A stretch of 64,000 bases of DNA, taken from NCBI GenBank assembly GCA_029204225.1, contig CM055113.1, positions 25,583,462 to 25,647,461 of the forward strand. The letters run 5' to 3'. The notes beneath the pieces were generated by a model that was given only the letters and a program-made list of their open reading frames with translations, had not been told where the DNA came from and ran no database searches. Shown here in pieces: positions 1-41,568 of this stretch (the first letter of the stretch is position 1; the number at the start of each line of letters is the position of its first letter). The stretch comes from Diphasiastrum complanatum (Eukaryota; Streptophyta; Lycopodiopsida; Lycopodiales; Lycopodiaceae). The position numbers and the translations under genes are program-made.

Positions 1-443
1 GACACGCGTCGATATCGGATTCGCGCACGTCTCAGCCCACGGGGCCTCATAATTGGGCCATCATTGTCAGTACGGACATTCCACGTGGCCTAATAATCTA
101 ACGACACATGTCTTTGCCATCTTTTCACACGTGCAAAAATTTTGTATATATAAGTGCTCGGTTTTTATATTTTTTTCCGCAAAATTTTCGCTTCTAGCTC
201 CCGATATCGCTCTCAAGCGCGCTCTTTCACCGTTCAAGCTTCCGCCCTCTCACAGTGCACTCGAGTTCGATACCGCTAGTAGTGCAATATCGCTTTCGAG
301 CGCGCATCTCTTTTCTTCAAATAATCTGTGTAGATCTTGCGCTCGAAACCGATATTCAGTTCTGGTATTGATCTCAAGTGTCCTTTCATTGCAAATTTTT
401 TTGTTTCATCCACTTTTGTTTTGTTATTTCTTTTCTTCTGAGA
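1..443 (+). promoter_or_regulatory. Probable promoter and 5' leader of the H3-like gene, copy 1
   Basis: A TATA-like run (GTATATATAAG) lies at about 144-154. Two G-box cores lie upstream: CCACGTGG at 81-88 and CACGTG at 128-133. The interval 180-440 is pyrimidine-rich and opens into two tandem ATG codons at 444-449. The last 70 bp or so before the ATG resembles the same position in copy 2 (reverse strand, about 34610-34690), so the leader belongs to the element. The element may continue left of base 1. Activity is not shown by sequence alone. Confidence 0.4.
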
Positions 444-1214
444 ATGATGGCCAGGACCAAATCCACCACCCGTGCCATCACCACTGTACAGCCATCCCAA
501 TCTCGTGTTCCCTTTGTTACTTGTCGTAGGCATGGCAGGAAGCAGGTCTGGCTAAGGGAGATCAGAAAACTTTAGAGATCAATCGAATTGTTAATCCCTA
601 GAGTTCCTTTTGGCCGATTTGTTTGGAATGTCACTCTGTCACTTGGGCTGAATGTTTGTTTTGTCGTGACATCCATGCAGGCCTTACAGGGTGCTGTAGA
701 AGAGTTTATGTCCCAGTTTTTTGAGGATACTTGTCTTTTAGCAGTGCATGGTAAGGATGTCACCATCATGCCAAAGGATTTCGTCATTCTCAAAAGGCTT
801 CGGGACAGATATTCTGGTTTGCATGTTGATAATGCCAGCACCTCCAGAGACCTGCCTTTGGATAGAACCAACGTGCCTACTACCTCTAAGAGGAAGAGAA
901 AGCAGTCTATCCCCAAGAAGGCTGGATCTCGACGGTCAGCTGCTTCCCTTCCTCCTAGATGTATCCCGGCCAAGAGACCCCATGTCTTTCTGAGCTCCGA
1001 GTCAGATGCTGGAGAATCTGACTCAAATCAAGAATCTTCACTCCTTCATGTTAATCGTCTAGCTCCTCAGCAGGTTTCATCACCAAAAGTGTTGATTACC
1101 CAAGAGGAGCTAAACAAAATAATAGAGAAATTTGTAAATATTGTTTTTGCTCCTGTACATAATCTTTTTGTGAGAATTCCATACGACCCAGCCCAGGTTT
1201 TTTTTTTATTTTGA
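444..1214 (+). pseudogene. Histone H3-like N-terminal module of an H3/Ulp1 fusion gene, copy 1 (in-frame TAG)
   Basis: The reading frame opens MMARTKSTTRA, matching the start of histone H3 (MARTKQTARK). It continues through RRHGRKQVWLREIRK, then ELLIPRVPF, then ALQGAVEEFMSQFFEDTCLLAVHGKDVTIMPKD in separate stretches; these match H3 alpha-N, alpha-1, alpha-2 and the [20 protein letters not shown] signature. A TAG at 573-575 interrupts the frame at the glutamine of the IRKYQKSTELL segment; copy 2 has CAG there. After the fold comes a basic, NLS-like linker (SKRKRKQSIPKK, SRR) and an acidic serine run (SSESDAGESDS). Seen: H3 fold signatures and the stop. Known: H3 is a core nucleosomal histone. 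Inferred: a divergent H3 paralogue captured by a mobile element. The frame ends at 1212-1214 in a ten-T run, and a one-base slip there would join it to the protease-like frame that follows. Confidence 0.8.
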
Positions 1215-2510
1215 CCATTATAATCAATACGAGTCCTACCTAGCTAACAAAATTGATCTTCTCGGCAATTTTTTTGATTTTTTTCTTCGAGATACACGTA
1301 GAAGCTTTAGATTAGGTCCCAAATTTTGTGCCGAGCTAAAGACCTCAAAGATTTCAGATGCAATAGTAGAGGCCGGAATTTTTTTTTTGCTAAATAGTAT
1401 TAGTTTCGATTCCCATGATACATTTTTTGTACTTAGTCATGGGAGCGGTAAAGGCGAAAGAAGCCAATTTTGAGAAGGCTGTCTATTTTATCGAGTGCAG
1501 TCCTATGGAAAAATTCTATTTGATTCCATATGAAAATAAGTAAGGATTGCTCTTTTGTTTTTGTTGCTTTAATCTGGATTTTTGCATGCTTCATTGCGAA
1601 ATTTTTTCATAAATATGAATTTATCGATATTTGTGTTTGGTTCTTGCAGTCGACATTGGAGCCTTAATATTCTTTTTGTAAAGATAAATAAGGAGGGAGT
1701 ATCAAATTTTTCATGAGTAAAATTAAACTCAGCTACAAATACACATAGAGAATTTGATTCTCTACTTCATGATGTCGTTTGGAAAATACCGACAACGACA
1801 ACTTCAATTGGAGAGATAACCATTAAATCTCTCAAGGTATATTCAATGTATCTCTGATATGCATGTATTCCGTTTTTAATTCAAATGTATCTTCATAGCA
1901 TAAATAAAAAAATTTATCACTATATTACTAATTTTTGTTCTATATATGCAGTGTGTACAGCAACAAGACGCTTTTAGTTGTGCATGGTTCATCCTGTACA
2001 ATACGAAGCTATTTTTTGAATGGTATAATTTACAAACGGATGTAGATATTGAAAAGGTAATATTCTATTCATTTGTAGTTCATTTTATTCTGATTCATAT
2101 TTTATTACTATCATTGTTTGTAATTAGCTGATTCTCGTGTTTTGTGATGACAGTTCACTCTTGAGCCGTATACTCCTGATGATGTATATAGATTTCGGCA
2201 AGAGTTGATCAGAACTTATGCTCAATACGGTGTAGGCGTTGCACCTGCAATCGAGGGCCCTCAAAAGGAAGCTGCTCCTGCCTTAACAGCCTTTCAGGTT
2301 GCTCAAGATGCAGATCTTATTTTATATGATAAAAAAGGAATAAAAGTCCTTACTAATACAGAAGAAGGCAATTTTGTAGCAGATATTCCTCTTGCCTTAA
2401 AAGGCATTGAGGCCCTTCTTGAAACAAAGGAGGGCGAGATTATAGAAGGAGCTGTTGCCTTATTAGTTCCTAATACTAATATAGAGAATATAAAAAAATT
2501 GATTGAATAG
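1201..2510 (+). pseudogene. Ulp1-like C48 cysteine protease module of the H3/Ulp1 gene, copy 1
   Basis: Several exons can be read. An open frame at about 1205-1475 and a shifted frame ending YLIPYEN lead to a GT donor at 1540. After the acceptor ending 1649, an exon carries RHWSLNILFV (catalytic His codon 1654-1656). Next comes EFDSLLHD (Asp codon 1756-1758), then a donor at 1837. Exon 1952-2056 encodes CVQQQDAFSCAWFILY, with the oxyanion Gln and nucleophile Cys (codon 1979-1981). Exon 2154-2510 is a C-terminal tail of 118 residues with no recognised domain. The order His, Asp, Gln, Cys is that of Ulp1/SENP SUMO proteases. The usual Gly after the Cys is Ala here. Two frame problems, near 1201-1210 and 1475, argue for decay, although unseen introns could account for one. 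This lies downstream of the H3-like frame on the same strand with no second promoter visible. Confidence 0.75.
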
Positions 2511-2577
2511 AGATCTATTTGTAAATAAAGAGACATAAAAAAAAAAGAAACAATCATTTTACTTGTAAACAACCTGT

Positions 2578-3585
2578 TTATGGGTTTTTTTTATTGATAT
2601 CACAATAGATTCTTACAATCAGCTTGTGTCCATAGTTTAACAATGGAATGCAATTTTTATATAATGATAAAAAGACATTGGCATGTATTTGCTGATAGTG
2701 AATCTCAATGTTCTTCCATAAGTTGGATTGTTTCGCCAATATCTCTGCATTTGATCTTGAGCTCTCATGTCTTTTACGTACATGCATAAAACTAATACAA
2801 AGTTAGTTAGAATTAGTACAGAGTTTGTATTAGAGAGTTTTGATTGAAACTATTCATAAAAAATCGAGTGTTTACAGTTACTTACGAGTTTACCATTGAA
2901 AATGAATCTAAAGTCTGAAAGTACATCATCTTGTAGGAGCAATAGTTTTCGTCGGATGTAGTTTAGACTCCAATCTTCTTCCAATTCAACACATGTCAAA
3001 ACGACATCATTGTATATAATTTCAATATTTTTTTGTTTTGAATGTCCACTGGCTTCCAAGTCTTGATCGAGTGGCACCCATTTATCTTTATTTTTTTCCA
3101 TCTTTGATAATGGAAGCATAAGCTCAACATTTGTTTTTCAATTTGATAACGGAAGCACATGGAAGACATTTTAATTCTGCATTCTATTTCTCCATCTGAT
3201 CTTTTGTCCCAGCCTTTATCCATAAGTTCAGATAATAAACTATTTGATAAATTTTTGCATACAAACATCGTTGGGATTTTGTGTACATTGACACTTGAAA
3301 AGAAATCCACAAATATATTCAAGGAAATAAACCAACTCAATCTGACTGTTTTTTATCTAGTGCTCATTTTTAATGAATTTTTTACATCATTATATATCTT
3401 GCAACAAAATGATTCTGAAAAACTGTAGCATCTGGTGTAATCCATTCATCACTTTCAAAACTAGGTAATGGAATTGGTACTATTTGTCCAAAATTTCCTT
3501 TTGTATCAGGAATGTACATTGATTCATAAAAAGAGATCCCACTATCAGCGAGATCTTTTGCAGTTCTACCTCGATATTGCACACA
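2578..3585 (-). pseudogene. Gene 2 of the H3/Ulp1 element, copy 1: unknown protein with a ubiquitin-like stretch
   Basis: This gene is convergent with the H3/Ulp1 gene; the two stop codons are 67 bp apart. Coding segments on the minus strand run from YRGRTAKDLADSGISFYES at about 3575 (with FGQIVPIPLPSFESDEW after it), through a segment at 3119-2880 containing IEIIYNDVVLTCVELEED and FRFIFNGKL, to a terminal basic segment at 2770-2578. A GTAAGT donor directly follows the NGKL codons. The middle segment has the beta-beta-alpha spacing of a ubiquitin-like fold, with FRFIFNGKL resembling the LIFAGK strand of ubiquitin; this is weak similarity only. The 5' end is cut off at about 3585, where copy 2 continues into another coding exon. 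I do not recognise the family. Confidence 0.5.
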
Positions 3586-3926
3586 AGGGCAAAAATTATA
3601 CTAGAAAAGGTGACATTTTGACTTTTTAGGAATAAAAAATGTTAAATGAAATAAATAGTGGCTTATAATTGGCCTTTAATTATAATTTACGGCTTTTTTC
3701 AATAACGTCGAGTTTTATGCCATTCTACAATGTACTCTTTACACGTTAATGAATAACGCCTGGGTACTTTTAGGAGCTATCTTAAAATTTAAGGGGGTAT
3801 CCTAAAATTAAGAGTCATGAAGATGAAAACAAAGTAAGTTGCACTTGTTGATGGTCAATGAGAGTTTAATGACTTTACGATAACATGGAATAACGGCTTG
3901 TTCTTATACACAAGGGCAAAAATTAT
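3581..3926. repeat. 19-bp direct repeats bounding a 327-bp segment at the end of element copy 1
   Basis: ACACAAGGGCAAAAATTAT occurs at 3581-3599 and again, identically, at 3908-3926. The first copy sits exactly where homology between element copies 1 and 2 stops. The pair may be a target duplication around an inserted segment or a junction left by repair. Confidence 0.55.
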
Positions 3927-4879
3927 GTTCACCCTAAAAGAATGCAAAGCACAAAGTTAAGGTGTCAATTGAGTTGACAAATTCTAGCTAGAAGGTTATA
4001 GAATTGATAGTACAATGGCAAGAGATTATAGAATCTACAGTATAGATGAAGGACGAGAAATGCCAATGGGAAGTATAAAGGGAAAATCCGTTTACAAGGC
4101 CTAAAAGATTTGTGGGTTCATTTATTCATTACGAAATACTAGATAGGAGACCGTTCAAGAAAGACTGTCTAAAGAGATAAAGTTTTAGTTATGAAGGAAA
4201 CAAGATTTGGAGTTTACGGAAATGATACTTCTGAGTGCTTATGAGGCTCAAAATTAATACTCAAAAATTTGAACTTGTGAGAAGAACGGTTGTTGTGATG
4301 GACATTAATGTATCCTTAATGTTGAAAGGAATTTTCTGATTTCATTACTGGATTTATCATTGATTGATATCATTCCATTCACTGTGGCAAATCTAAATGG
4401 AGTAGGGTCGCGGTTCTGCCTGATGTCCGTGTATACCTTGGCTACATATAAGAGTGAGGATTCTGTAATCAGGGGAGGCGTTTTCGTATACTAATTGTTG
4501 TTTGAATGCCCACATCTGATTTGAATGACTAGCAATAAATACATGTGGAGATCATACAAATCCGTGAACAATACGGTCACAGTTCTGCCTATAGTTGTTG
4601 CGTACTTCTATGAAACTTTGAAGCAGATTATAGAGTGTTAGAGAATGGATGCATTGATCTGATTGATCTCCAATGGAGTCAACGGACAGTATGTTAGTGA
4701 GACTGAAGCGGCGGCCGTGAGTGCGATTAGCCATTCATATAATAATCTACTATGAAAAGAACAAGGAGGTTGAAGTTTTGGAGGAGAAGGCCAATGTGTC
4801 AAAAAGATTAGAGTGACGGTCTTTCTTGTTGTACCATATTATGATCCCTATAAGAATGTGGGATGGCGTCAAGTGAAGT
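3600..4879. other. Unassigned AT-rich region
   Basis: I see no frame with family similarity and no clear LTR or terminal inverted repeat here, apart from the 19-bp repeat at its left end. The short minus-strand frame at 4552-4734 has no recognisable features. Confidence 0.5.
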
Positions 4880-5344
4880 TTGATAGTTGATCTTATGGAT
4901 GTAGAAAAACAGATACAAAGAAACAATACTAAACAAAATCTATATAGAGCAAAAGATCATACAAAAGTTCACATGAGCACAACAATTTATTCTCATAAAA
5001 CCTTTTGGAGAAAAGGCAGCCACAAACAACCTAAAATAGTTGATGATTTTATTGATGAGGTCACTAGTGACTACACACCAAGTAATGTGGAGGTCATGCA
5101 TATTCCTATGTCTCATATATCCACTCACTCCACCAGTCTTGACATTGATCCTACTTGCATGGATTTTGATCATCCCATAGTGTCATCACACCTAGATTGT
5201 ATCCAATCCACAACACCTTGTGAAAATCCTATCAAAAGCTCTATCCATCTCATGACATCACCACATACAGATATTGTGCATCCCATCACATTCAACGTAA
5301 ATCATATAGATTTTTCTATCTTAGCTACTCCATTAAAAAAATAA
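4880..5344 (+). CDS. Hypothetical ORF upstream of the SET-domain gene
   Basis: This is an open frame of 154 codons. The N-terminal third is basic and Asn/Lys-rich. The rest is rich in His, Ser, Thr and Pro with repeated HPI/HPxS-type segments, which reads as low complexity. It has the same frame phase as the SET-domain segment that starts at 5456, about 110 bp further on, and only a short stop-containing gap separates them. It could be the N-terminal region of that same gene, now interrupted or spliced. I recognise no domain. Confidence 0.3.
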   Translation: MIVDLMDVEKQIQRNNTKQNLYRAKDHTKVHMSTTIYSHKTFWRKGSHKQPKIVDDFIDEVTSDYTPSNVEVMHIPMSHISTHSTSLDIDPTCMDFDHPIVSSHLDCIQSTTPCENPIKSSIHLMTSPHTDIVHPITFNVNHIDFSILATPLKK

Positions 5345-5455
5345 CGCGACGCATTTTGACAAGATTTGAAAATAAACAAAGGTTTTTACGTACTATCGAC
5401 TTGTCCAAAAATGTTTTAAATTCGTTGACCGAATCTCCCCTTCCTCCTCATCTAC

Positions 5456-6045
5456 ATGCAATTATTTAAGTCGTTTGATAGAAAGAAATATTCATGTTGG
5501 CCTGATACGGTACCACTGCCATTATGTGGGACATCATTTTCATATTGGGTTCATATGTATATAAGTAAGCCTAGTGAGCGGTTTCCTAATGTCGGATTAG
5601 GTTTACTTTCTTTGACTAGCATTGATGTCCCTTTGAATAGTGTTGTCACATTAATGCCATATGCAGGACCTCAATACAATTGGGGTGATTGGCATGCTCT
5701 ATGTTGCCACCAATGGAGAATGCAAATATATGGTTTAAATTCCAATGCTTGTTCTTTGGAAGAGAGGCGCATGCAAGGAAAAAGTGTTTCAAAATCACAT
5801 CGTATGTACATCAATGGGCATCCAGAAATACATGGAAACATTGCTGCATATATATATATAGTTCTATTTGTCACCCTTCATCAACTAATTGTGACTTTGA
5901 AGAACGCATCAATGGAAAAGAAGATTATTTTTCTAGATATGTGAAAGCTACATATGTAATGGCTTGTGCGATCAAACCTATTAAATGTGGTGAAGAACTA
6001 TTCATCAACTATAGCTTCAGTCGTCCTCTACCAAGATGTGTATAA
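5456..6045 (+). pseudogene. SET-domain protein fragment, frameshifted in a TA repeat
   Basis: The first frame (from 5456) contains NVGLGLLSLTSIDVPLNSVV followed by PYAGPQY, which fits the opening strands of a SET domain (GLGLFA, I..G, Y.G). It continues to INGHPEIHGNIAAYI. A second frame (to 6045) picks up at SSICHPSSTNCDFEERING and ends VKATYVMACAIKPIKCGEEL plus FINY, the typical SET C-terminal I..GEEL..Y motif. The two halves meet at a short TATATATATA run near 5848-5860, where replication slippage would shift the frame. SET proteins are protein-lysine methyltransferases. The pre-SET and post-SET cysteine clusters are not visible, so the subfamily is uncertain. The likeliest reading is a decayed gene or mobile-element cargo. 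Confidence 0.6.
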
Positions 6046-6099
6046 AAAGTTTTGACCAAGCACAACCATGTGCGTTGTAGATACCAAAAGTACATCCTT

Positions 6100-6812
6100 T
6101 TCATTCGAGTTCAATTTGGATGTCTTATTTGACTTTCAATTTGTATATGATGTTTCTTTTGGATGTCTTATTTAAGTCACATTTGATATATGCTTGATGT
6201 TAAGTTTTTAAAAATAATGCCCAATTTTCAATGTCTTGTTTCAGTTTCAATTATAATATAATGTTCGATGATGTCTTATATAAGTTTCAAATTGGATATG
6301 ATGTTTGATGTTTAGGTTTTAGAAATAATATTCAATTTGCATGCCTTGTTTAAATTTAAATTTGAATATGATGTTCGATTTTGATGTCATATTTAAGTTT
6401 CAATTTGAATGATGCTTAGTGTTTAGGTTTTAACACAAAATATTCAACTATATTGAAACTGTATACAATGTTTTAAATCTAATTAGTTATCATACTTGAT
6501 ATTTGATACTTGAACTATAAGGTGATATCTTTTATTTGAGAACATGAATAGTCTTAATAGTTGTATTTGTGTTTTTTTAAAATAATATTCAATTTTGATA
6601 TCTTGATTTAAGTTCCAATTTGTATATATTGTTGTTCAGTTTTGATGTCTTATTTTTTTTTTTAATTATAAGGTGACATCTTTTATTTGAGAGCGTGAAT
6701 AGTCTTAGTAGTTGTGTTTGTATTTTTTTCAAAATAATGTTCAATTTTCATATCTTGATTTAAGTTCCAATTTGTATATATTGTTGTTCGGTGTTGATGT
6801 CTTTTTTTTCCA
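6100..6812. repeat. AT-rich degenerate repeat tract with a 151-bp tandem duplication
   Basis: From 6100 to 6480 a phrase like TTCAATTTG...GATGTCTTATTTAAG recurs several times with drift. At about 6515-6665 and 6666-6812 a longer unit beginning TATAAGGTGA is tandemly duplicated with a period of 151 bp. There is no coding potential. Confidence 0.6.
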
Positions 6813-7114
6813 TGTTTGAAAAAATACGAATTGTCATCTAGTTCTAATAATGATGATCACATACATTCCGTATCCACCACAAGATTGGGATACAATGGGC
6901 CACATATAGATCAACTATCTCGTCATGAGTGGATGAGATTATGAGCCATGATGAGAATAGATGAACAACAACGTTGCAAGACAAATCGGTCTCGACCTAA
7001 CTCTTCTTCTTACTCAAAATCAAGTTCAAGTGAACATGATTGTTCTATGCAAGATAAAGTCGAATTTATGAACAACTTGATAAATTATGTCTATGAGCAT
7101 CATGACAATATAAA

Positions 7115-8075
7115 AGATTGAAAGAGCCCCTTGGATTCTTACCAAGGAAGAGTACAAGTATGTACGGTCAGTCATTTGCGAGATGAGAACTGGTTTTGCT
7201 CATTCACTACGAACATCAATCACAACAGAAGAAAAACTTCATGGTCTTAAATCTCGTGATTGGGCTTGAGTACATATTTCCAATGTGTGTTCGTGGTTGT
7301 CTAACCGATCAACTTCGCGATACCATTTACATATGATGATCATATACTACAAATATGATGTAGATGAATGTGTGACAACGTGAGATAGATGTGAAAAAAA
7401 AACATGAAAATATAGTGGAGGCTATATGTATGCTTGAGATATATTTTCCATCCTCCATCTTGGACAATCTGCTTGTGCACTTAGTCCAAGAAATTGGTAT
7501 TGTTGGTCCTGTGCACTCAAGGTACAAAATATATGATTTTGGTTTTTGTGGCTTCAATATATTGTGCATCATTTTTTTGTCTGTCATTGATCATTGCTCT
7601 CATCATGCAATAAATGTTTATAGGTGGATGTTTTTTCTGGAGGGATTCATGAAAGTTTTGAAAGATTTTGTGCGTCAAAAGGCAAGACCAGAGGGAAATA
7701 TGGCCATGTTGGAACCATTTTTTAGCTTAACATTGTTAAATGTGCAAGTATTGTTTCAACCGGATCAACTAAACAACAAGTGGTGGTAGGTTGTTTAAGT
7801 AAATCCACGCGCAAGACATGTATTTGAAAATGCATACATCGAGAAAGAAATGGAGGACTTGAATATTGACAACACAAACATGGTTGATGAGGATATAGAA
7901 ATATCTCCAAGCTCCCTAAATATTATAGAAAATATCATAAATGAATCGAATGATTCTAACACAAACAACAATATTGAGAGAGGATCTGATTACTTTAGTG
8001 ATGATGAAAATCATCTAAGCGGAGATGAGTTGCAAGATGTATTGGCTGATGAATTTGAATCTTGTGATGGTGAAT

Positions 8076-8077
<2 letters not shown>
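7115..8077 (+). pseudogene. CACTA (En/Spm) transposon remnant with a DUF4218-type region
   Basis: A frame at about 7120-7270 reads ILTKEEYKYVRSVICEM and ends KLHGLKSRDW. It shifts to YIFPMCVRGCLTDQLRDTI (about 7272-7330) and then to MLEIYFPSSILDNLLVHLVQ at 7430-7495. After a probable intron (GT at 7521 to AG at about 7623) it continues RWMFFLEGFMKVLKDFVRQ and KARPEGNMA. These are the signature blocks of the DUF4218 region next to TNP2-type CACTA transposases (GLKSHD, LP..LR, P.SFFD.M.HL..HL, R.MYP.ER.....K..V.N.A.PEGS.A). The acidic stretch 7850-8077 may be the C-terminal tail. Stops and frameshifts show that it is dead. Confidence 0.75.
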
Positions 8078-8450
<373 letters not shown>

Positions 8451-9450: not shown

Positions 9451-9843
9451 TTGATGAGTGATCTTGATTTTGAGACAAATCCATGTTGTTTTCCACCAAT
9501 CGGTCCCCCAGTTGTCAAACATGCTTCAATCCACCTACTCCTCTCCTTTGCAGCGGCAGCAGATCTTGAATTCCACCAGATGGATGTCCAGACCATCTTT
9601 CTCAATGGAACCATCGAAGAGGAAGTCTATATGACGCAGCCAGAAGGATACGAACTCAACGGCAAGCAACAACACCTTGTATGCAAAATCCACAAGGCAC
9701 TCTATGGGCTGAAACAGTCACCCAGAGCCTGGTTCCAAAAAATCAACGTATTTTTTATCGAGAATGATTTTATCTTAAACTCGACAGACTCAAATGTCTA
9801 CATCAAGTCTGTATCAGATTACTTCATCATCATCACTCATTAG
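9451..9843 (+). pseudogene. Ty1/copia reverse transcriptase fragment
   Basis: This open frame carries the copia RT blocks LEFHQMDVQTIFLNGTIEEE, VYMTQPEGY and KALYGLKQSPRAWF. It lacks the YVDDML catalytic block, because the frame is cut at about 9840, exactly where an oppositely oriented copia gag begins. It is a truncated fragment without LTRs. Confidence 0.9.
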
Positions 9844-10631: not shown

Positions 10632-11220
10632 TTGCAATGATCTGATCTTTTTCTTTCAACTTGTTTCAATGCATAAAGCACTCTCTTTAATGTCAACAAA
10701 TGCACTCAAGAAGAAATCACAAAGACATGAAACCTCTCAAATCTCTTCTAGCACTTCTAACTAGAAAATCAACACATAGAATAGTGAAATTTTGATCACC
10801 CTATGATCTATCCTCAATCTAATGATTATTGCCACTTTCTAAGATTAAAACACACTCAAATGAAGTTTAGTAACCTCACAAAATAGAGATCCAATCAAAA
10901 TTAGGGTTTTGACAAAATCACAAAAAATTGAATATCTCAAATTCTACATGCAATTTCTAAAAACTTGATATATCTTCTTGTAGACTCCAATGTGACCTTC
11001 CTAATGCACCAAAAATCATCTAAATCTAGTAAGACAAGTGTGAGATTGGAATTGATCAATTATATAACCCTAGATTGAGTTTTGACCTACAAAAGATCCA
11101 ATCTACATATGCAAAAATGCTGATTTTTGAGTAGAAATCAATCTAGCATGCTCTAGCATTGGTAACTCCTCCAAGTACTTGCTAAAGATGGCTGATCATT
11201 CCATAACCTGAAACACAATA

Positions 11221-30223: not shown

Positions 30224-30870
30224 CACATGTTCCAAAACAGTAAACACTCTTGATAAATGAAGTTTCTCTTCAACACTCTTATATTTTGTGAAGATTACTT
30301 GTGATTTTTTTCTTTATATCTATTTGAATTTAGTAAAGCTATATTTTATAGCCAGAATATAAAGCAAACCATAAAGTTTGCACCTTGGTGGCCAACTATG
30401 GGTTTGGTAGAACTACAAATTACTATCTAATCTATCAACAGTTCCTAAAGAGAGAAATAAACCCGTGAATCGTGCTCCTCTTTTACTAGTAATTTGGAGA
30501 CTAATCAGAAATGTGGTGAAGCATTAGAGAAACTTAGAGCCCAAAGAGGGCCTTTGAAAAATATGTTTTTTTATTTTTTTTCTTATTTTCGTTGCCATGT
30601 GGACCAATGGAAACCTTGAAATCAGGGTTCGGACTGCCACGTGGCATTTTGGGATCGGATAACATAAATTCAAGTGCCCATTAGAGTTCATAAAGGTCGT
30701 CTGCCTCGGGTTATTGGTTGATAAGGCCTGCCCTTCCAGCTCATCACTGTCCGAAGAGACCCAAAAATATTGAAAATGAATATGACAGATAGTTGAGATG
30801 AGAAATTGAAGTACCATTAATGTATATGCATTGTCAAACAATGGTTAATAGGGTTAACCAGAGTTAATTC

Positions 30871-31230
30871 GTGGCGCCAAATAGATCAGTGTTTCAAATT
30901 TACCCCAACATATTTTCTCATATTCATGGCTTTTTGTCTACGCAAATTTTCAGATTTATAGTTCAGTGTTTCAGATTTTTACATGCACATTACGAATGGT
31001 GCCATCAAGGAAGCCGTGCTCCTCAATCGACTATGTGCTTCTATTCAACGAGAAAGATGATAATGGATTATGGGTGCCAAGAAAATATTCAAAAAAATCT
31101 TGGGTTTTGATACATCCATCGCCAAGAGGAGCATTTTGAAAAAGCAAAAGGTCAAAACTATCATTTCGATCTTATTGGAAGGCCAGAATATTGGATTTCA
31201 GAACATCATCAAGAGGAAAATCTATTTCTA
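30871..31230 (+). other. Possible upstream exon of gene 2, element copy 2
   Basis: Mixed-frame stretches look coding-like (NGAIKEAVLLNRLCASIQRE, then KKIFKKILGFDTSIAKRSIL and ISILLEGQNIGFQNIIKRK). They are on the same strand as, and just upstream of, the clear gene 2 exon at 31404. No family is recognised, and at least one stop or frameshift is present. Confidence 0.3.
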
Positions 31231-31403
31231 AAATTCTAGTCCAACATGTATATATGCATTCAGAGATAAATGTGCAAGGATTCAATCGTCAGGATCACAC
31301 AAAAAAAAACAACTATGAGTATTGATATTTTTGATACTTAGATTTTTGTCATTCATAAATATCCAATATTAAACTTGCCAATCTGATCATTTTTCTCTTG
31401 CAG

Positions 31404-32455
31404 ATTTATATCCATCCAACATAAATGAATGGGAGCCAAGTGGATTTTTAGCAGGTGTGTTAGATATTACTCACACTGATATTGGACAGCTGCAATATCA
31501 AGGTAGAACTGCAAAAGATCTAGCTAATAGTAAAATCTTTTTTTATGAATCAATGTACATTCCTGATACAAAAGAAAATTTTGGACAAATAGTATCAATT
31601 CCATTATCTAGTTTTGAAAGTGATGAATAATATATAATGATGTAAAAAATTCATTAAAAATGAGCACGAGATCAAAAATAGTCACATTGAGTTGGTATAT
31701 TTCCTTGAATATATTTGTGGATTTCTTTTTAAGTGTCAATGCACACAAAATCCCAACGATGTTTGTATGAAAAAATTTATCAGATAGTCTATTATCTGAA
31801 CTCATGGATGAAGGCTGAGACAAAAGATCAGATGGAAAAATAGAATGTAGAATTAAAATGTCTTCCATGTGCTTCCGTTATCAAATTGAAAAACAAATGT
31901 TGAGCTTATGCTTTCATTATCAAAGATGAAAAATAAATAAAGGTAAATGGGTGCCACTCGATCAAGACTTGGAAGCTAGTGGACATTCAAAATAAAAACT
32001 TATTGAAATTATATACAATGATGCCATTTTGATGTGTGTTGAGGTGGAAGAAGATCGGAGTCTAAATTACATAAGGTGGGAACTATTGCTCCTACAAGAT
32101 GAGATGTACTTTCAAACTTCAGATTTATTTTCAATGGTAAACTCGTAAGTAACTGTAAACACTCGATCTTTTATGAATAGTTTCAATCAAAACATTCTAA
32201 TACAATCTCTGTACTAATTGTAACTCGCTTTGTATTAGTTTTATGCAGGTACGTAAAACACATGAGCTCGAGATCAAATACAGAGATATTGGCAAAACAA
32301 TCCAACTTATAGAAGAACATTGAGATTCACTATTAGCATATACATGCCAATCATCATGTCTTTTTATCAATATAGAAAATTGCATTCCAGTATTACACTA
32401 TGGACACAAACTGATTGTAAGAATCTATATTGATATCAATAAAAAAAACCCATAA
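31404..32455 (+). pseudogene. Gene 2 of the H3/Ulp1 element, copy 2
   Basis: After an acceptor (CTCTTGCAG ending 31403), an exon reads DLYPSNINEWEPSGFLAGVL and then YQGRTAKDLANSKIFFYES, FGQIVSIPLSSFESDE. It therefore carries coding sequence upstream of the point where copy 1 is broken. Relative to copy 1 it lacks about 44 bp after FESDE, which truncates the frame. The ubiquitin-like segment is present (IEIIYNDAILMCVEVEED ... FRFIFNGKL, followed by GTAAGT) but has a frameshift within it. The terminal exon ends at the TAA at 32453-32455, 68 bp from the convergent stop of the H3/Ulp1 gene. Confidence 0.5.
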
Positions 32456-32523
32456 ACGGGTTGTTTACATGCAAAATGATTGTATCTTTTTTTTTTTATG
32501 TATCTCTATTTACAAATAGATCT

Positions 32524-32901
32524 CTATTCAGTCAATTTTTCTATATTTTCTTTATCAGTATTAGAAACTGATAAGGGAACAGCTCCTTCTATAATCCCAT
32601 CTTCCTCTGTTTCGGGAAAGGCCTCAATGCCTTTTAAGACAAGATTACTCTCTGTTATAATATCGTCTTCCTCTGTATTAGGAAGGACTTCAATTTCTTT
32701 TTTGTCATATATTATAAGATCTACATCCTGAGCAACCTTAAGGCTGTTAAGACAAGAGCAGCTTGTTTTTGAGGGCCCTCGATCTCAGGTGCAACACTTA
32801 CACCGTTCTGAGCATAGTTTTTCATCAACTCTTGCTGAAATCTATATACATCGTCAGGAGTATACGGCTCAAGAGTGAACTGTCATCACAAAACACGAGA
32901 A
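32524..32901 (-). pseudogene. C-terminal tail exon of the H3/Ulp1 gene, copy 2
   Basis: The minus strand matches copy 1 exon 2154-2510: FTLEPYTPDDVYRF, then APEIEGPQKQAA. The acceptor (TTTTGTGATGACAG) and about 20 bp of the intron before it are preserved. Homology stops at about 32901, where a plus-strand copia fragment begins. Internal frameshifts are present. Confidence 0.65.
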
Positions 32902-33924
32902 GTAGTTATTATGGTGGCATACATTAGTAATTGGTGTCCGACAAAAGCCTTGAAGATTTTGACTCCTTATGAAGTTTGGTATCATTTGGTATCACCATCT
33001 AATGTTGAAGAGGAGGGACTACCATCATCCTCTAATGGATAGCCCACTGGTTCTTCAAGCGAACAGCCCATAATTCATCAAGAGGAGCAGATTTATGAAG
33101 AGGAACGACTTGTTGAAAACTTTGGATAGCATAGTCCAATTTTAGAGCACTTTGGACAGCAAAGTGTTGACAGTTCAGATCACTTTGGACAGCAAAGCGT
33201 TGATCAAAGTAAGGCTGTTGGACAGCCTAAACCAGTCCCTAAATGGCTGTTGCAGACTTTGCAGGACAGCAAAGTGAACCGCTTCTATGAAGGGAAGACT
33301 CGTGTCTCATCTAAATCAGTAGAATTTGCTGATTTTTTTTATTTTGCTCTTACATCTATTGAGGATAGTGCAATAGAACCTGTTTTTTATGAGCAGGCCA
33401 GAGGAGTAAAATGTTGGGAGGACGCGATAAAAGAGGAGTATGACTCACTCATAAAGAACCAAACATGGGTTTTTGTTGATCTTCCACATGGAAAGAAAGC
33501 AATTGGCTGTAATCAAGTACAAGTTCGATGGTACTGTTGTAAGGTGCAAGGCAAGACTTGTTGCCAAAGGTCATGCGCAAAAGGAGGACATTGATTATGA
33601 GGAAACTTTTGCACCTACCGCACGAATAACTACCGTACGGATAGTCACTACTTTGGCTGCCCATCATGGTTGGCGTATGCACCAACTTGACATAAAGACA
33701 ACCTTCCTCAATGGTGATCTTAATGAGGAAGTTTACCTTCAGCAACCTGCTGGTTTTTTGGTTGCAGGTCAAGAAGACAAAGTGTGTCTTCTCAAGAAGG
33801 CTCTCTATGGACTAAAACAAGCCCCAAGGATGTGGTATCAAAAGATACACACATACTTTTGTGATCGTGGGTTTTCTAGTAGTCATAGTGAATCTACGCT
33901 TTATGTCATGCATACATCTCTTGG
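32902..33924 (+). mobile_element. Ty1/copia fragment lying in place of the Ulp1 core
   Basis: Order on the plus strand: a remnant of the integrase end (CPTKALKILTPYEVWYH), a linker with a duplicated HFGQQSVD unit, and the start of RT (WEDAIKEEYDSLIKNQTWVF; a frame change near 33500; KYKFDGTVVRCKARLVAKG, RMHQLDIKTTFLNGDLNEEV, KKALYGLKQAPRMWY). It ends before the YVDDML block. Neither LTR, PBS nor RNase H is present, so it was not deposited here as a complete element. Confidence 0.85.
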
Positions 33925-34608
33925 GTAATCAACATTTTTGGTGACGAAACCTGCTGAGGAGCTGGACAAATAACAGGAGGAGGAAGGGGTGATGATTCTT
34001 GATCTGAATCAGATTCTCCAGCATCTGACTCAGAGCTCAGGACGATCCGAGGTCTCTTGGTTGGGATAACTCCAGGAGGAAGGGAAGCAGTTGGCCTTCG
34101 AGATCCAGTCTTCTTGGGGACAAGCTGCTTCCTCTTCCTCCTAGAGGTAGTCGGCAAGTTGGTTCTATCCAGAGGCAGGTCTCTGGAGGTGTTGGCATTA
34201 TCAACATGGAGAGCATAAAAATGGTCCCGAAGTCTTCTAAGAATGATGAAATCTTTTGGCATGATGGTGACACACTTACCATGCACTACCAAAAGATAGG
34301 TATCCTCAAAAAAACTGGGACAAAAAATCTTCTGCAGTACCCTGTAAGTCCTGCATGGCCGTCATGGCAAAATGAACATCTAGCCCAAGTGACAGAGTGA
34401 CATTCCTTACAGATCGGCTGAAAGGAGCTCTAGGGATCAACAGTTCAGTTAATCTCTGGAGTTTTCTAGTCTCCCTCATCCAGACCTGCTTCCTACCACG
34501 TCTACGGCCAATATCAGGGAGAACACGGGCATGGGATGGTTGTACAGTGGTTATGGCACAGTGGTTATGGTTGTATAGTGGTTATGGTGATTTGGTCCTG
34601 GCCATCAT
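33925..34608 (-). pseudogene. Histone H3-like module, element copy 2
   Basis: The minus strand starts MMARTKS at 34608 but meets a stop almost at once, because a CCATAACCACT-like repeat has expanded in the tail. It resumes as RRRGRKQVWMRETRKLQRL, LTELLIPRAPF and SQFF, then an extra T shifts the frame, and VVHGKCVTIMPKDFIILRRL and the linker follow in the open frame 34292-33925. Copy 2 keeps CAG where copy 1 has the in-frame TAG. The acidic motif is RIVLSSESDAGESDSDQESS. Homology ends at CCAAGAG near 33925, at the copia junction. Confidence 0.75.
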
Positions 34609-34678
34609 TCTAAAAAAAAAAAAATTTAAAAAAAAAAGTCTGAACAAACGCGCATAGAGTGAAAACAAACAAATTTGC

Positions 34679-35824
34679 GATAAGAGGGCGCTTGAGATCG
34701 ATTGGGAAGCTATCTCTTCCACTTATGAAGCTGCTTTTTCTAGTGGTACAAAGTCTGAAAAGTCAAAGATTGTAGATATAGATACTTTTTTTTTATATGA
34801 GCGTTAACTTAGATGATTGTTTAGATTTTGATCCTGCTCGAAATAGGGCATCGTTTATAGGCCCTAAAACATCCACTACCCTTTCTCCTTCTGATAAATC
34901 TTTCATCACTTTGTCTACTTATATTATAGATAATAATTTTTTTTTGACAATATTCGATATATCAGATCTTTTCTATTTCACTGAAGCTGAGATTCTTTAC
35001 ATTTTGAGCAAAGAGCTTGATGAATTTTCGGATATAATTGATTTTGATGCTGATGATCTTCTCCCTTGTGTTGACAATGTACATAATGATAAGTTTTATT
35101 CAGGAAAAGATTGCTTGAAAATGGTTGTGGAGAAAATGCGCAACGAAGTAGATGATCTACCTTCTGAGGAGGAATTTCTCAGAATCCAAAGTCAACTTGG
35201 TTTTCCACAACCAATTGTCTATTCACCAACAATATTGACATCAAAAGGTGGATATAATATTGATGGAGAGACAGTAATCAGGGAAGACAAAGGTAAATGC
35301 GTAAGTTTTTGTATCTTATCATGTACTAGTAGATTTGTTATGTCAGATTATATACTAGAGCTTACTTTGTTTTTTATCATTTTAGGAAACAATTTTCCTT
35401 GATGATTTCGTAATTCGTCGAGGGGGGCAGAGATCTTCTATTGGAGAATGTTCAAGAGATCATGCACTTGGGGCACTATCTGAAGTTCTTCAAGAATAAT
35501 GAGATAAGTGTTTCCCATTCAAAGTTTCATCAACATGGTGAGACTATGATTATGGCAATCAAGGCACTGTCTCATTTTCTTGGAGGACATAATTTCAATA
35601 AGGTGCATAAAATAATTTTTGTAAAGAAAACCATTGCGGTTGAAATTTTTAGCATATGGACAGTGAATTCCATGCTCAAATCATCTCATTTTGCATTATA
35701 TACTGCTTACGTCGATCTGAGTAAGCATGAAAACTATGAGCTGTTGGATCCATACGAAAGAAGAAAATTGTTGCATGATTCTAAGTTGCAACTTTCATTG
35801 GAGAAAGTATCGGAAGCAGAGTAG
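34679..35824 (+). pseudogene. Gene 3 of the H3/Ulp1 element: unknown acidic protein
   Basis: This gene is divergent from the H3-like gene; about 70 bp separate the two starts. A short frame (RALEIDWEAISSTYEAAFSS) shifts at a T-run near 34785 into the main frame, with LDDCLDFDPARNRASFIGPK, ILYILSKELDEFSDIIDFDA and LRIQSQLGFPQPIVYSPTIL. A donor GTAAGT at 35301 and an acceptor ending 35385 join it to ETIFLDDFVIRRGGQRSSIG. A frame change near 35450-35490 then leads to HQHGETMIMAIKALSHFLGG and a basic tail ending at 35824. I do not recognise the family. The spliced, acidic N-terminal half and basic C-terminal half are what can be seen. Confidence 0.45.
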
Positions 35825-35884
35825 ATACTACTGAATTGTACTTTGTAAATATTTTTATTTAATATACAAAATTTTACTGTGTGT

Positions 35885-36690
35885 CTATTGCCTATTGGCT
35901 TGTATAGATTTGCATGCTTTTTGAAATTTTTTATAATCTGTCAATTTTGTATTATGACGAATTTGGATTCTTCTGTAAAACCATTCAAAAAGTTGCAGTA
36001 TATTGCTGTTTTTTGTGCTAGTCCCGCCATGTTGTGTACTTTTATGAAATGTCACTCTTGCTTGCCAATGAGATTTTTCCATTCCTTGCGATGACCATAT
36101 GCTAAGACTTCCACTATTTCTTGCAAAGAATGTCGAATGATGTTGTAGTATGTGCTGCATGTCATGAAAACATAATCTAAATCAGTACCAAAAGTATCTA
36201 ATTTAATTGCACATATTTGTCTATCGTAGTGTAACATTGAAATCTTACCATATAATGTGTTATATGATAAACACCCCATGCACTTTGAACTACATCCAAA
36301 AATTCACTGGTTGTTTTCTGTATCATTTGTACATCAGTATTTGAAAATTTATTTTTTCTCAAATATTTCACCATGTTGTCTAATTTTTTTTAAACTTCTA
36401 CTTTGTGTATACGAGTAGGACTAATGCTTTTTCTTTTGATTAGATCTTTTAATTTAATCAGATCCCTGGTTTGATCACATAAAAGAATCAACGAAGGATA
36501 CATAAAGATATACAGAGATAGATAGAACTGTAAGTTTTTGACATAGCGATCAATAGTAGCTAGTCGCATTACTCGTGAGAGAGAACATCTCTCTTGTGCC
36601 AACGTGCTGATCTGGAAAACAGATAGTGCTCAAGAAAATGTTGTATATTCGGTTCTTATAATAGAAGCAATTTTTGCAATACTCTCTTCT
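35885..36690 (-). pseudogene. Gene 4 of the H3/Ulp1 element: unknown, spliced
   Basis: This gene is convergent with gene 3; the stops are 60 bp apart. Minus-strand coding-like segments are AQERCSLSRVMRLATIDRYV with LILLCDQTRDLIKLKDLIKR (36602-36395), then KKLDNMVKYLRKNKFSNTDV with EFLDVVQSAWGVYHITHYM ending at a GTAAGA donor near 36245. After an acceptor near 36158 comes HILQHHSTFFARNSGSLSIW, EKSHWQARVTFHKSTQHGG and SNILQLFEWFYRRIQIRHN, with the stop at 35885. The last exon has the feel of a transposase C-terminus (E..H, TQHGG, L..FEWFYRRI), but I cannot assign a superfamily. One frameshift, at an A-run near 36390, is evident. Confidence 0.4.
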
Positions 36691-36947
36691 GTAATGTGTA
36701 AATGTTTGAATGCATGTTAGTAGTAGCTATCTTTCTGTTGTTGTTTTACTCAACATTATCTACTGTGTACAAGTTTAATTTTTACAATAGATCTGCAGTA
36801 GCGATCTGAGGCCTGGAAGAGAATCAGACCGCAGTTAGTAGCAATAGCTACTCCTGTCAAGTCGGCTCTATTCGGCCTTCATCCTTTGGGAATTTCTTTA
36901 TTAGTGCTATCAAAGCGTTCTGACGTTGATAAAAAAATTTTTATCAG

Positions 36948-36960
36948 TGGTATCAGAGCG
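36948..36960 (+). other. Primer-binding site of a plus-strand copia remnant
   Basis: TGGTATCAGAGCG follows TTTTTATCAG, the expected LTR end. A second, degenerate PBS-like phrase (GCTATCAAAGCG) lies 43 bp upstream. No gag follows. Confidence 0.65.
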
Positions 36961-37204
36961 TCTTGACATTTTCGAGATTCCATCAAGTTGGTCGAGGCAC
37001 TAGTAGTGCACTATGACACCTTAGTGGACACCTCAGCAGTCTATCTGGGCCATGTCATCTAGTTTCCCAATGGTAGACTCATACAAATCCACCATCATGA
37101 GTTTAGGCGTACAACCATGAAATATGACCTTATGCACATTAAGGCCCCAATTCCCTTATAGTCACAATCAACTACCCGAGACCAGTCGTGGGCATGACAT
37201 TCTT

Positions 37205-37822
37205 CCTCTCTTATTCAAGTTTTGTCCTCAGAACTTAAAACTGGGAAGTTTCTTCTTAAGCTCCCTTCTTGTTCCTAGGAATCATCACCGTCTATGTGTC
37301 CCTTCCATCGAACCAGATGCTCGATAGCTATACGATTTCTCAATCGTTTAGTTCTTGTACCCAAGATCTTTTCGGGTTCAAGTCAAGACACACCCGATGA
37401 TTCATCCAACAGATCCAATTGGTCTCCAGAACCAAGATGCTCACCTTCATGTAGACTCTTCTTGAGTCGGCTTACGTGAAAAATTGGGTGCACTTGAGTT
37501 CCTTCCGGGAGGATATGATCTTTTTCAAGATCTGATACGGTCCTCTATACCTAGGGGACAATTTATAATGCTTGTCGGTACTCATTACACTAGAATCCTT
37601 CGAGATTCTCAAATACACCCAATCCCCCACTTGAAAGTCTCGTAGTGATCTTTTCATATTTGCATAATGTCGGTCCAGCCTATCTTGGGCACACTGGACA
37701 TTTTCATGTGCAATGCGTAGCATTTTGTGCATATCATATAGGAAATCTGCTACCTTTTGAAACTTGATCGTCAGAGTCTCTACTGCAATGGGTGACCTAG
37801 GCTCAAAACCATACATAAGCAT
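37205..37822 (-). pseudogene. Chromovirus integrase C-terminus with chromodomain
   Basis: The minus strand has the integrase C-terminal blocks RLDRHYANMKRSLRDFQVGD and LSPRYRGPYQILKKI. A frame change then leads to HPIFHVSRLKKSL and a chromodomain-like segment (PEKILGTRTKRLRNR, EHLVRWKGH, FPVLSSEDKT). The aromatic Trp expected in its DDSWE block is a TAG stop. The chromodomain is used by Ty3/gypsy chromoviruses to guide insertion to marked chromatin. The purine-rich tract and TGTCATGCCC at about 37199 look like the polypurine tract and the start of the 3' LTR. Confidence 0.75.
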
Positions 37823-38093
37823 AAACGGGCTATAACCGGTAGCCGAATGCTTACTATTATTATAGGAAAGCTCGATTCAATGGAAGATACTTCTCCCAAT
37901 CAGATTGTCATTGGAAAACATATGCTCATAGCATTTGTTCCATCGCCTAATTTGTTCTTTCCATCTGTCCATCCATCTTAGGATGATCAAACGAACTTAA
38001 GCTCAAAGTCGTCTCTAGTTTAGCAAACATGGCCGACCAAAAGTGACCTGTGAACTTCGGATCGCGATCACGATCGCTCACAATATCACTCAA

Positions 38094-38765
38094 TTATCCA
38101 TAAAGTGTAAATAGATGCTCTACAAATGTCTGAGCTAAATCAAAAGCCTTCACGGTGGTCTTTACTAGAATAAATGTAGCCAATTTGGTAAGACGGTCGA
38201 CCACAAGCCAAATTACATCATGCTGTTTATTTGTCCACGGTAACCCAACCACGAAATCCATGGAAATACTATCCCATCTCTTATCGGGGATATCCAGTGA
38301 ATGCAACAATCCACCAGCCTTAAGGCGTTCAACCTTATTCAACTGGCATTGATCACACTTGACCACATAAGATTCTACAAAGGGCTTGAGTTTTGGCCAA
38401 TAAAAGTCCTTTCGTACCAAATCTAATGTACGATGTATGTCGGGATGTCCTACGCATAGTGAGTCATGACATTCATAAAGAATTTTATTTTTAACAACAT
38501 CCACATCAGGCATACAAACCTTCCTTTTCGTGAACAAAAGTCCATTACAGATAGAGAAGTCATCAGCACCCTTTTTATTATCCCCCCCAGATTGATCACC
38601 ATGAACATCAGTCTCGCTTGATGAAACTGTCAGAGCCCTATTCCAGATTGGTCTAAAATGTGGGTCTTTCTCATACAGACCTCTCAGAGAGAGATAAAAT
38701 CCTGTATTGATCTCAATGAAGGAAAGTTCGCTTACTTCACAAATTTCACTAAGTGCATCAACCAC
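38094..38765 (-). pseudogene. Ty3/gypsy (chromovirus) integrase N-terminus and core
   Basis: This open frame of 223 codons has an HHCC zinc finger (H..H...C..C: ECHDSLCVGHPDIHRTLDLV ... VKCDQCQLNK). The core start follows (RWDSISMDFVVGLPWT, VVDRLTKLATFI) with the first catalytic Asp in SMDF. The frame ends before the second and third acidic residues, where a break separates it from the C-terminal part at 37822. Confidence 0.9.
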
Positions 38766-39001
38766 CTGATTATAGGTGCCTTTGATATATCACACTTATT
38801 ATCATACAGGTAATGTCTCCATGATTTCAATGCATGGATCACCACAAACAGTTCTTTTTCTTGCGTGGTATATTTGACCTGCGCATGGATTAGTTTTTTG
38901 CTTTCAAAGGCAACGGGTTGGCCCTCTTGTAAGAGAACAACTCTAATAGCCGTATCACTCATGTCAATGTTAGTGACGACAAATCTGGATCTGCTATCCT
39001 C
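38766..39001 (-). pseudogene. Chromovirus RNase H fragment
   Basis: The segments MSDTAIRVVLLQEGQPVAFE, SKKLIHAQVKYTTQEKELFV and VIHALKSWRHYL are the gypsy RNase H_3 blocks. The upstream edge is cut by the solo LTR at 39007-39734, and the frame overlaps the integrase frame at its end. Confidence 0.85.
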
Positions 39002-39006
39002 AAGAC

Positions 39007-39734
39007 TGTTGGAGGGTTTGTGGATCCCAAGGCAATCCTAACCCTAGTTAATAAGTGAGAGGGATTTGGCACCCTGCGTGTGTAAGTCCAACCCAATGAT
39101 CACATAGAGATTTGATTAATTAGAAAGTTAATAAAAGGACTTTAGGTCTTTTTGCGAGACTTTTAATGTCGCAGGGCCTAAATGTCAAGTTAGTGAATAA
39201 AGTTGGGTTCGTTCCAATTTAGATAGTTCCCACTGTTTTTTAAATTTGAATAGTTAGGGAGTCAAAAATGGACCAATAGGATTCAGAGGCCAGGGTCCTC
39301 CTCTCTACTATAAAAAGGGACCAACTCGAGTCTTCATCTCAATAAAGCAGATTGGTTCTCTTGTGAAATGGATTTATGAATGTCCTTGCTCTCTATCACT
39401 TTTCTTTCATCTCTCATGCTTTTATTGTGTTTTGCTAATTGTTGAATTTGATTGTTATTGGGATTGCATGTTTTTATACTTTTTATGAGAGAGAAAGGGA
39501 GAGAGAGAAAGTGTAAGTTATCTTCATTGTGGATCTAGTGTTAATGGATGTAGTGTTAATGCTTAGGGTTAGTGGATGGTAGAGTTAGATGTGAGTCTTC
39601 CATTCATGCTGAAATCTGAACTATGCTATCGCTCTCATGGAAACGAATCTACGCGTGACAACTAAATTCATCTCCTCGATGCTAGATTGATTAGATCTTG
39701 GGTTGAGGATAGGCAAGGAAAGAAACCCACTACA
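39007..39734 (+). mobile_element. Solo LTR with target-site duplication AAGAC, inserted in the chromovirus
   Basis: The 728-bp insert begins TGTTGGAGGGTTTG and ends CCCACTACA (TG...CA). It is flanked by AAGAC at 39002-39006 and 39735-39739. Removing it would rejoin the RT/RNase H coding sequence. A TATA box (CTACTATAAAAAGG, about 39305) and AATAAA (about 39341) place it on the plus strand, opposite to its host element. A solo LTR is the usual product of recombination between the two LTRs of a full element. Confidence 0.9.
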
Positions 39735-40570
39735 AAGACTAGAGTTGAGACAATTAGAAGCTTGAGTTTTCGAAAACTCTCATCTAACTTCTCATTCCAC
39801 CTTATAGGAGGACTTGGCCTACCTTTGCAGCTTTTCACTCCTTTCAACATATTGTTGAGAGGCATAGAAATCTTTGAGTACTCCTCTACAAATCTACAAA
39901 AAAACGTAGTGAAACCTAAAAATGACTTAAGTTCACAAACCGTTTGAGGAACTGACCATTCCACTACCGTCTTCACATTTTCCTCATCAATCTTGATCCC
40001 GACAGAGGTGATCTTATGACCAAGGTAAAGTTCTTTTTTAATTTGCACTTTGATTCCTTTGCATAAAGCTTCTCTTGACTTCAGGTACCTAATACAGTAC
40101 AGAGATGCTTAGCATGCTCTTTGAGTGTTCTACTATAGATCAAAATATCGTCCATAAACACTACCACAAACTACAAAATAAATCGTTCATTTGTTGGAAA
40201 GTTGTCGGAGCATTGGTTAAACCAAAGGGCAAAACTAAAAACTCGTAGTGGCCAAACCTGGTCTTAAAACTGGTCTTAGATACATCTATGGATGTATTCT
40301 GATCTGATGATATCTCGTACGTAGATCAATTTTCATGAAGTATTTAGTTCCATTTAACCGATCTATGAGATCATCCATCTTGGGCAACAGGTATTTATTT
40401 TTTTATAGTAAAGACCCTTGTAATCTACACATAATCGAAAACCCCCCATCTTTCTTACTCTTAAGAAGGATAGGTGCTCCCCATGGAGACTTACTTGGTC
40501 TGATGTGCCCCATCTTAAGATATTCCTCGATTTGCCTAGCCACTTCATCCTCTTCCTTTTGACTAAACCT
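39735..40570 (-). pseudogene. Chromovirus reverse transcriptase
   Basis: Minus-strand order: WGAPILLKSKKDGGF-like sequence at about 40500 followed by LCVDYKGL, a damaged middle, the catalytic [13 protein letters not shown] block at about 40175-40135, and then YLGHKITSVGIKIDEENVKT and ELKSFLGFTTFFCRFVEEYS of the thumb/connection. Frameshifts break the frame at least twice. The end is interrupted by the solo LTR. Confidence 0.85.
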
Positions 40571-40619
40571 ATAAGGTTGTCTGAAGATAGGACGACTATC
40601 GGGTGTCTTTTTCTATGAC

Positions 40620-41212
40620 CTCCTTTGGATGATAGATCACATATATCCTTGGTTACCAGTCTTTTCCTCTTGTTGCTCCGGACCATTCTGTTGAGCACAT
40701 CCATGTCTTTAACAAGAGACAAATATGAGATACACATGGACTGAAATGCAGTTTTTATCTCATCATTACTAGTTGCATAATGATGCAAAGAAGATTTCAA
40801 CCTTGTGATCTCTTTCTTGAGCATCTCATTTTCATCCAACCAAGTTTTCAACTTTGTAGATTTTTCTTCGCACTCCCTTGATATTTTTCTTGATTTCTCT
40901 TCCAAATAATGTATCCTTTGCATTGAATGTGCATTCCCATAGAGCATCAAAATCTCACAGTAACCCAAAAGGCCATTTTTGCCATGACACATAGATTATT
41001 AACTGACTTACCGAATGAAAATCTAGATGTTGCAATGAACATGGATCAATAGGATACAATGTTCCCGATGACCACAAATCTACATGTTTTAGCTTTTCCT
41101 CCTTGTATCGGACCATATCAGACGTTGACAATTTGGGTTGCTTTGAATTTCTCGTCCTGAGCGGTGCATATTCTGGTGACAGATCCACATGAAGATGATA
41201 AAGCTTTGTCAT
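40620..41212 (-). other. Coiled-coil ORF of unknown origin next to the chromovirus RT
   Basis: The minus strand has LEEKSRKISRECEEKSTKLK and ENEMLKKEITRLKSSL (heptad-like), then VKDMDVLNRMVRSNKRKRLV. It is fused in frame to RT sequence at about 40600. Upstream, 41212-40990 holds another coding-like piece (LRTRNSKQPKLSTSDMVRYK). It does not look like gypsy gag or protease. It may be a captured host gene fragment. Confidence 0.35.
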
Positions 41213-41568
41213 CAGTATAGTAGTATAGTAACAAACAACACAATGACAATAACAAAGCTGGAATGGCGCTAACCCTGCTGGAGATAGAGATGGCGCTAAA
41301 CACTTGTTTGACCCTAGAGATAGAGATGGCGTAGACTTTGTTTCAGAGATGTCACTCCTAATTCAAATGCAGCGGAAGTTGGAGCGATCAGTGGTTGAGG
41401 ATTGGAAGCACATCATTCACCAACAAATTACTAAAAAGAAGAATTCATTACAAATGCACAAATAAACGAAACAATAGTGTAGACAGAATTTGCACTCTGA
41501 TTGATTGAACAAAAATTTGCACTCTATACTTCATACAATTCATCCACAAACAGTTTTATATATGGACA

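Follow-up and report, generated by a model that had tools for sequence, protein, structure and literature searches.

A histone H3-like domain joined to a Ulp1/C48-like region in a single gene of a repeated DNA transposon from the clubmoss Diphasiastrum complanatum

Ulp1-like domains are already known from DNA transposons, as an earlier note on the locus analyzed here had pointed out. CACTA-ULP transposons have been described in grapevine and rice (PMC2528002), and, in the Arabidopsis VANDAL MULEs, the KIU/Kaonashi VANC genes contain a Ulp1 domain and VANC proteins counteract silencing (PMC13317346). The available portion of that review describes the precise function of Ulp1 in plant transposons as unknown and contains no occurrence of the word histone (PMC13317346). 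Across yeast, plants, and animals, SUMO favors silent chromatin (PMC8131101). Fungal DNA transposons encoding TET/JBP carry enzymes thought to aid escape from silencing (PMC12730594), and histones are known in viruses (PMC9145170). A fusion of histone H3 with Ulp1 was not found in our protein database searches or, within limits, in the literature, in agreement with the earlier note, which knew of none.

The window, that is, the whole stretch of DNA analyzed, comprises 64,000 nucleotides of the D. complanatum genome (contig positions 25583462-25647461 in a 1.745-Gb assembly) and includes two copies of a repeated element (Table 1). Copy 1 carries a decayed gene of four exons, the limits of which were derived from the alignment of the two window copies with 20 further genomic copies (22 aligned copies altogether). 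Within exon 1, the H3-like fold continues, in the same frame, into the Ulp1/C48-like region. The HW, FDSL, and QQQDAFSC motifs that the earlier note had placed on the same strand as the H3 part were located in exons 2 and 3. With some exceptions, the aligned copies agree in the three acceptors and in donors 1 and 2; the third donor, read in the window copy only, is the GT at 2057. The transposon itself extends well past positions 444..2510.

Table 1. Features of the transposon copies in the window (window coordinates)
Feature	Position	Strand	Description
Copy 1	1..3581	+	Cut at window edge, right side truncated; 2-3207 = E12 5039-8284
H3-Ulp1 gene, decayed copy	447-2510	+	Four exons: 447-1539, 1650-1836, 1952-2056, 2154-2510
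Exon 1	447..1539	+	H3-like tail and fold ~447-812, charged spacer ~813-1071, start of Ulp1-like region ~1072-1539
Exon 2	1650..1836	+	RHWSLNILF...FDSLL, with His and Asp as catalytic candidates; single in-frame stop in window copy
Exon 3	1952..2056	+	CVQQQDAFSCAW; candidate catalytic Gln and Cys
Exon 4	2154..2510	+	C-terminal domain; stop codon 2508-2510
Gene C remains	2700..3581 (approximate)	-	Convergent; minus-strand frames seen in copies
Copy 2	30522..41368	-	Pieces 41368-40604, 36422-34696, 34702-33918, 32901-31820, 31520-30522
Copy 2 transposase remains	35945..41200	-	41200-40606 and 36434-35945; Ty3/gypsy-type insertion between

The gene of copy 1 (hereinafter, the window copy) is interrupted by a stop codon in exon 1 (573-575), the stop in exon 2, and a poly-T frame slip between the H3 and Ulp1 parts. 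The slip, noticed earlier, is real (near 1198-1207) and is absent in other copies, for example, L012/E12, L016, L022, and L041; it is decay of the window copy. The claim that copy 2 preserves both ends of the gene held for the H3 part and exon 4, but the Ulp1 catalytic exons are missing from its gene remnant (34639-31491, minus strand), in which 33917-32902 has no counterpart in copy 1. Because copy 2 lacks these exons, the support for a joined gene comes from the other genomic copies.

Searching the genome with a 422-base probe taken from the 3' portion of the gene yielded 1652 first-look candidates, 40 of which were scored and were 93-100% identical to the probe. The gene was read in 40 copies (the 22 aligned ones and 18 more), among which 31 were non-duplicates, with pairs more than 97% identical regarded as duplicates. 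A part was counted as present when half or more of the H3 fold, or of two Ulp1 stretches, was recovered. Both parts are present in 26 of the 40 copies, including 22 non-duplicates; in agreement with the earlier note, the fusion is not a local accident. Two copies contain the H3 part without the Ulp1 region, four contain the Ulp1 region only, and eight contain neither at this threshold; the H3 part is retained in 24 non-duplicate copies. The frame runs unbroken from the H3 fold to the Ulp1 region in five copies (L016, L019, L041, L043, and L049) that collapse to three non-duplicates (L016, L019/L049, and L041/L043), each with the two domains in one exon and one frame. The frame across the junction is open over 302 codons in L041, the longest observed; a single stop follows, after which exon 1 stays open to its end, as do exons 2-4, whereas the start region is missing. 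None of the 40 copies read contains a fully intact gene, each being broken. Of the copies with one part or neither, none of those inspected individually was read as an independent intact H3-like or Ulp1-like gene. Together, these observations support the conclusion that H3-like and Ulp1/C48-like domains are joined in a single gene of a repeated DNA transposon. Two adjacent genes or pseudogenes that share a strand by chance would account for the broken frame in the window copy and for the state of copy 2, in which the H3 part is kept but the catalytic exons are absent. Given, however, that one exon in one frame crosses the junction in 5/40 copies, that the splice sites are largely common and both parts recur in 22 non-duplicates, and that the L041 frame contradicts it, such a chance arrangement appears very improbable.

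The histone assignment made in the earlier note was borne out by profile search: the translation of window positions 576-1211 matched the Pfam core histone family PF00125 (E = 4.3e-13), and the L016 read-through matched the same family with E = 7.6e-20. The majority sequence is identical to plant H3.1 in 48 of 87 residues (55%). In a profile comparison with PDB based on 11 copies, H3.1 (81 bits) and H3.3 ranked first, and no CENP-A was present among the 60 matches listed of 177. For a single copy, H3.1 and CENP-A scored nearly equally (70.6 and 69.8 bits, respectively). Proteins of the CENP-A type have a longer loop 1; no loop-1 insertion relative to H3.1 was detected in the majority sequence. 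Among the non-duplicate copies, H113 is retained in 21/22 and D123 in 19/22. The core histone profile, combined with H3-type residues through alpha-3, indicates a histone H3 fold. The tail begins with MARTK; position 4 is Lys in 15 of the 17 readable non-duplicates, and position 9 is Ala in 18 of 19. The same window segment (576-1211) also resembled the histone fold of CENP-T (PF15511), though below threshold (E = 0.0009; 19.7 bits, with the cut-off at 28.1). Separately, a gene model from the nematode Diploscapter (P0001), possibly a misprediction, joins an H3 domain with a hydrolase.

A histone profile search of the genome produced 6325 candidates, of which 150 were scored. Thirteen of these, scoring 163-165 bits, resemble ordinary H3 genes; the other listed matches, at 82-110 bits, are spread over many contigs with frequent stops, and one lies inside the element copy L052. 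Among the matches listed, 23 have stop-free frames of at least 300 residues and are thereby candidates for an intact fusion, although some may be other histones.

The Ulp1 part is less readily classified. The Peptidase_C48 profile check proposed in the earlier note gave a divided result: of 10 copies, six matched PF02902 with E<=1 (best E = 9.5e-5), but the bit scores, available for five scans (13.7, 15.0, 17.1, 18.9, and 19.9), all fall below the curated cut-off of 20.7, and in a separate scan of five copies, three, including the window copy, had no match. None of the solved Ulp1 structures was matched. The motifs HW, FDSL, and QxDxxxC follow in order and contain the candidate catalytic His, Asp, Gln, and Cys; in the readable non-duplicates, His is kept in 20/21, Asp in 18/21, and Cys in 21/22. 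The gap between the His and the Asp of FDSL exceeds the usual Ulp1 spacing. Because membership in C48 is based on the catalytic motif together with a borderline profile match, we consider, with moderate confidence, that this part is likely, not proven, to be a C48-like protease. Copies of exon 4, which encodes the C-terminal domain, gave no Pfam match above the cut-off.

The order of the domains, fold, spacer, protease, and C-terminal domain, would also suit a self-cleaving precursor. The Ulp1-like domain would then be a processing protease that cuts its own precursor into separate H3-like and C-terminal proteins and removes no SUMO from chromatin, and protease relatives with a role in maturation exist. 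Nevertheless, the available portions of the accounts of plant transposon Ulp1 proteins describe no maturation enzymes (PMC2528002, PMC13317346), and we consider this route improbable.

The variants shared within the main family showed no third-position enrichment (78/948 compared with 44/472 at third positions; p = 0.48; p = 0.93 with CpG); the tail and H3 part alone, one of several subsets, gave p = 0.029. A copy of a divergent subfamily, located inside L027, retains the H3 part, spacer, and exon 4. Since its Ulp1 exons are absent, the fusion is not shown in that subfamily. Compared with this copy, exon 1 (tail, fold, and spacer) differs at 60 of 404 first and second positions and at 52 of 201 third positions (p = 0.0013), and the third-position excess persists without CpG sites (p = 0.0030). 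Among the subsets, the spacer carries much of the signal (p = 0.0096); tail plus fold gave p = 0.064, and neither for the H3 fold by itself (p = 0.18) nor for exon 4 (p = 0.39) was the constraint against the divergent copy significant. These comparisons are modest evidence that the encoded protein was formerly under purifying selection. They also bear on the possibility that the H3 part is a piece of a host gene captured by transduplication and fused by chance to a Ulp1-like gene, an unused passenger in an element for which only the transposase matters. Gene capture by plant transposons is a review topic (PMC13317346), all copies read are decayed, and both the lack of codon bias among the main-family variants and the result for the H3 fold alone fit such an origin. 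Against it stand the retention of the H3 part in 24 non-duplicates and in the divergent copy, the third-position excess over the whole of exon 1, and the conservation of H113 and D123 at only 55% identity to H3.1. On balance, a captured passenger seems rather unlikely.

The host element, CATTAGAGAAA...TTTCTCTAATG, is a very abundant TIR DNA transposon with a length of about 9.3 kb, represented by a complete copy with both ends, E12 (L032 and L012; 9271 bp); the right end of copy 2, GGGCTCTAAGTTTCTCTAATG, is at 30522. The transposase matched P0007 with E = 7e-88. In copy 2, its remains matched P0007 in tblastn at 41200-40606 (E = 8e-9) and 36154-35945 (E = 4e-16), and P0003 at 36434-36246 (E = 2e-6). 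A Ty3/gypsy-type element occupies window positions 40604-36422 inside this transposase gene, with Integrase_H2C2 at 38097-38765. For a relative of the transposase, P0008, a Foldseek search with the predicted model gave RAG1, BbRAGL, and HzTransib within its nine highest-ranking matches (best E = 1.4e-6); the model is weak (pLDDT 54; TM 0.15-0.27; rmsd >10 Å; 12-17% identity). Comparison with PDB sequences recovered no transposase among the matches at E<=1. With low confidence, the transposase may thus resemble RAG1/Transib and be of the DDE type.

Assignment to CACTA/EnSpm was considered and rejected. Elements of that group have TIRs beginning with CACTA and a 3-bp target duplication. The TIR here starts with CATTAG, no 3-bp duplication is present beside the ends in the three complete copies (3/3), and no Pfam match to Transposase_21 was obtained with the transposase read-through (E<=10) or with its seven relatives (E<=1). 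Target-site duplication was absent at the expected ends of all three complete copies. Transib elements produce a 5-bp target-site duplication; only E16 has a 5-bp repeat, ACACA, provided that its right end is placed 2 bp farther outward.

On its minus strand, E12 contains two further genes, B and C, for which a known family was not found, copies of gene C having no Pfam match above the cut-off. The gene C segment FRFIFNGKLV has, by eye, a ubiquitin-like strand pattern, for which profile support is absent. An annotated D. complanatum protein, P0002, is 81% identical to the element over 20% of a 592-residue read-through; it ends in the element's exon 4, joined at the start of that exon, a possible case of exonisation. 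Window positions 1-8214 are 99% identical to L009 1693-9882, which lies on this contig at a distance of about 18.5 Mb, and constitute a segmental duplication. Elsewhere in the window, copia-type gag and pol frames are present at 9836-10705, 45798-46757, and 58149-58715, the segments 45331-46580 and 57217-58459 are mutually inverted copies, and a 100-base unit forms two tandem copies, 96% identical, at 30024-30223.

We propose that the fused gene is an accessory gene of a DDE, RAG/Transib-like TIR transposon and encodes a SUMO protease that is tethered to chromatin and opposes silencing, a reading to which we give an even chance. The H3 part would carry the protein to chromatin, through an H4/H3 partner or the nucleosome, where the Ulp1 part would strip SUMO from proteins that maintain silencing, allowing the element to be transcribed and to move. 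Such an anti-silencing factor would be akin in role, and unlike in sequence, to VANC/KIU proteins or transposon TET dioxygenases; we infer this role because SUMO supports silencing, VANC genes contain Ulp1, and transposons encode TET enzymes. With an H3 fold on a Ulp1 protein, chromatin is the suggested place of action, and SUMO-based anti-silencing can be tested directly. Conceivably, the transposon encodes an H3 variant of its own that is incorporated into nucleosomes, possibly those covering its own copies, with the attached SUMO protease clearing silencing factors from the same nucleosome. Its tail, in which K4 is kept and K9 is missing, could not take a main silencing mark, and the transposon itself would make an anti-silencing nucleosome; we regard this version as unlikely.

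Transposons carrying Ulp1 are thus known already, and the joining to an H3-like fold, which within the limits of our searches was not found elsewhere, is the new element. The proposed tethered-protease gene has a counterpart in role, by analogy only, in the KIU/Kaonashi VANC genes, likewise transposon accessory genes with a Ulp1 domain, which however belong to MULEs, whereas the clubmoss element is predicted to be RAG/Transib-like. TET/JBP transposons differ in acting on DNA methylation through a dioxygenase, in fungi, and the available portion of their description contains no occurrence of Ulp1 (PMC12730594). RAG1, BbRAGL, and HzTransib may share a fold with the transposase relative P0008, according to the low-confidence model, but at 12-17% identity. 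CACTA-ULP and the clubmoss element are both TIR transposons of plants that encode a transposase and contain a Ulp1-like region, and the clubmoss end CATTAG resembles CACTA; the clubmoss element differs in having no Transposase_21 match and in the fusion of its Ulp1 part to an H3-like fold. Plant H3.1 and H3.3 resemble the clubmoss protein in the MARTK start of the tail and in 48 of 87 fold residues, whereas its tail is short and without K9 and it bears a long C-terminal fusion. If the proposed role is correct, a DNA transposon would here be making use of a histone, beside the histones of viruses.
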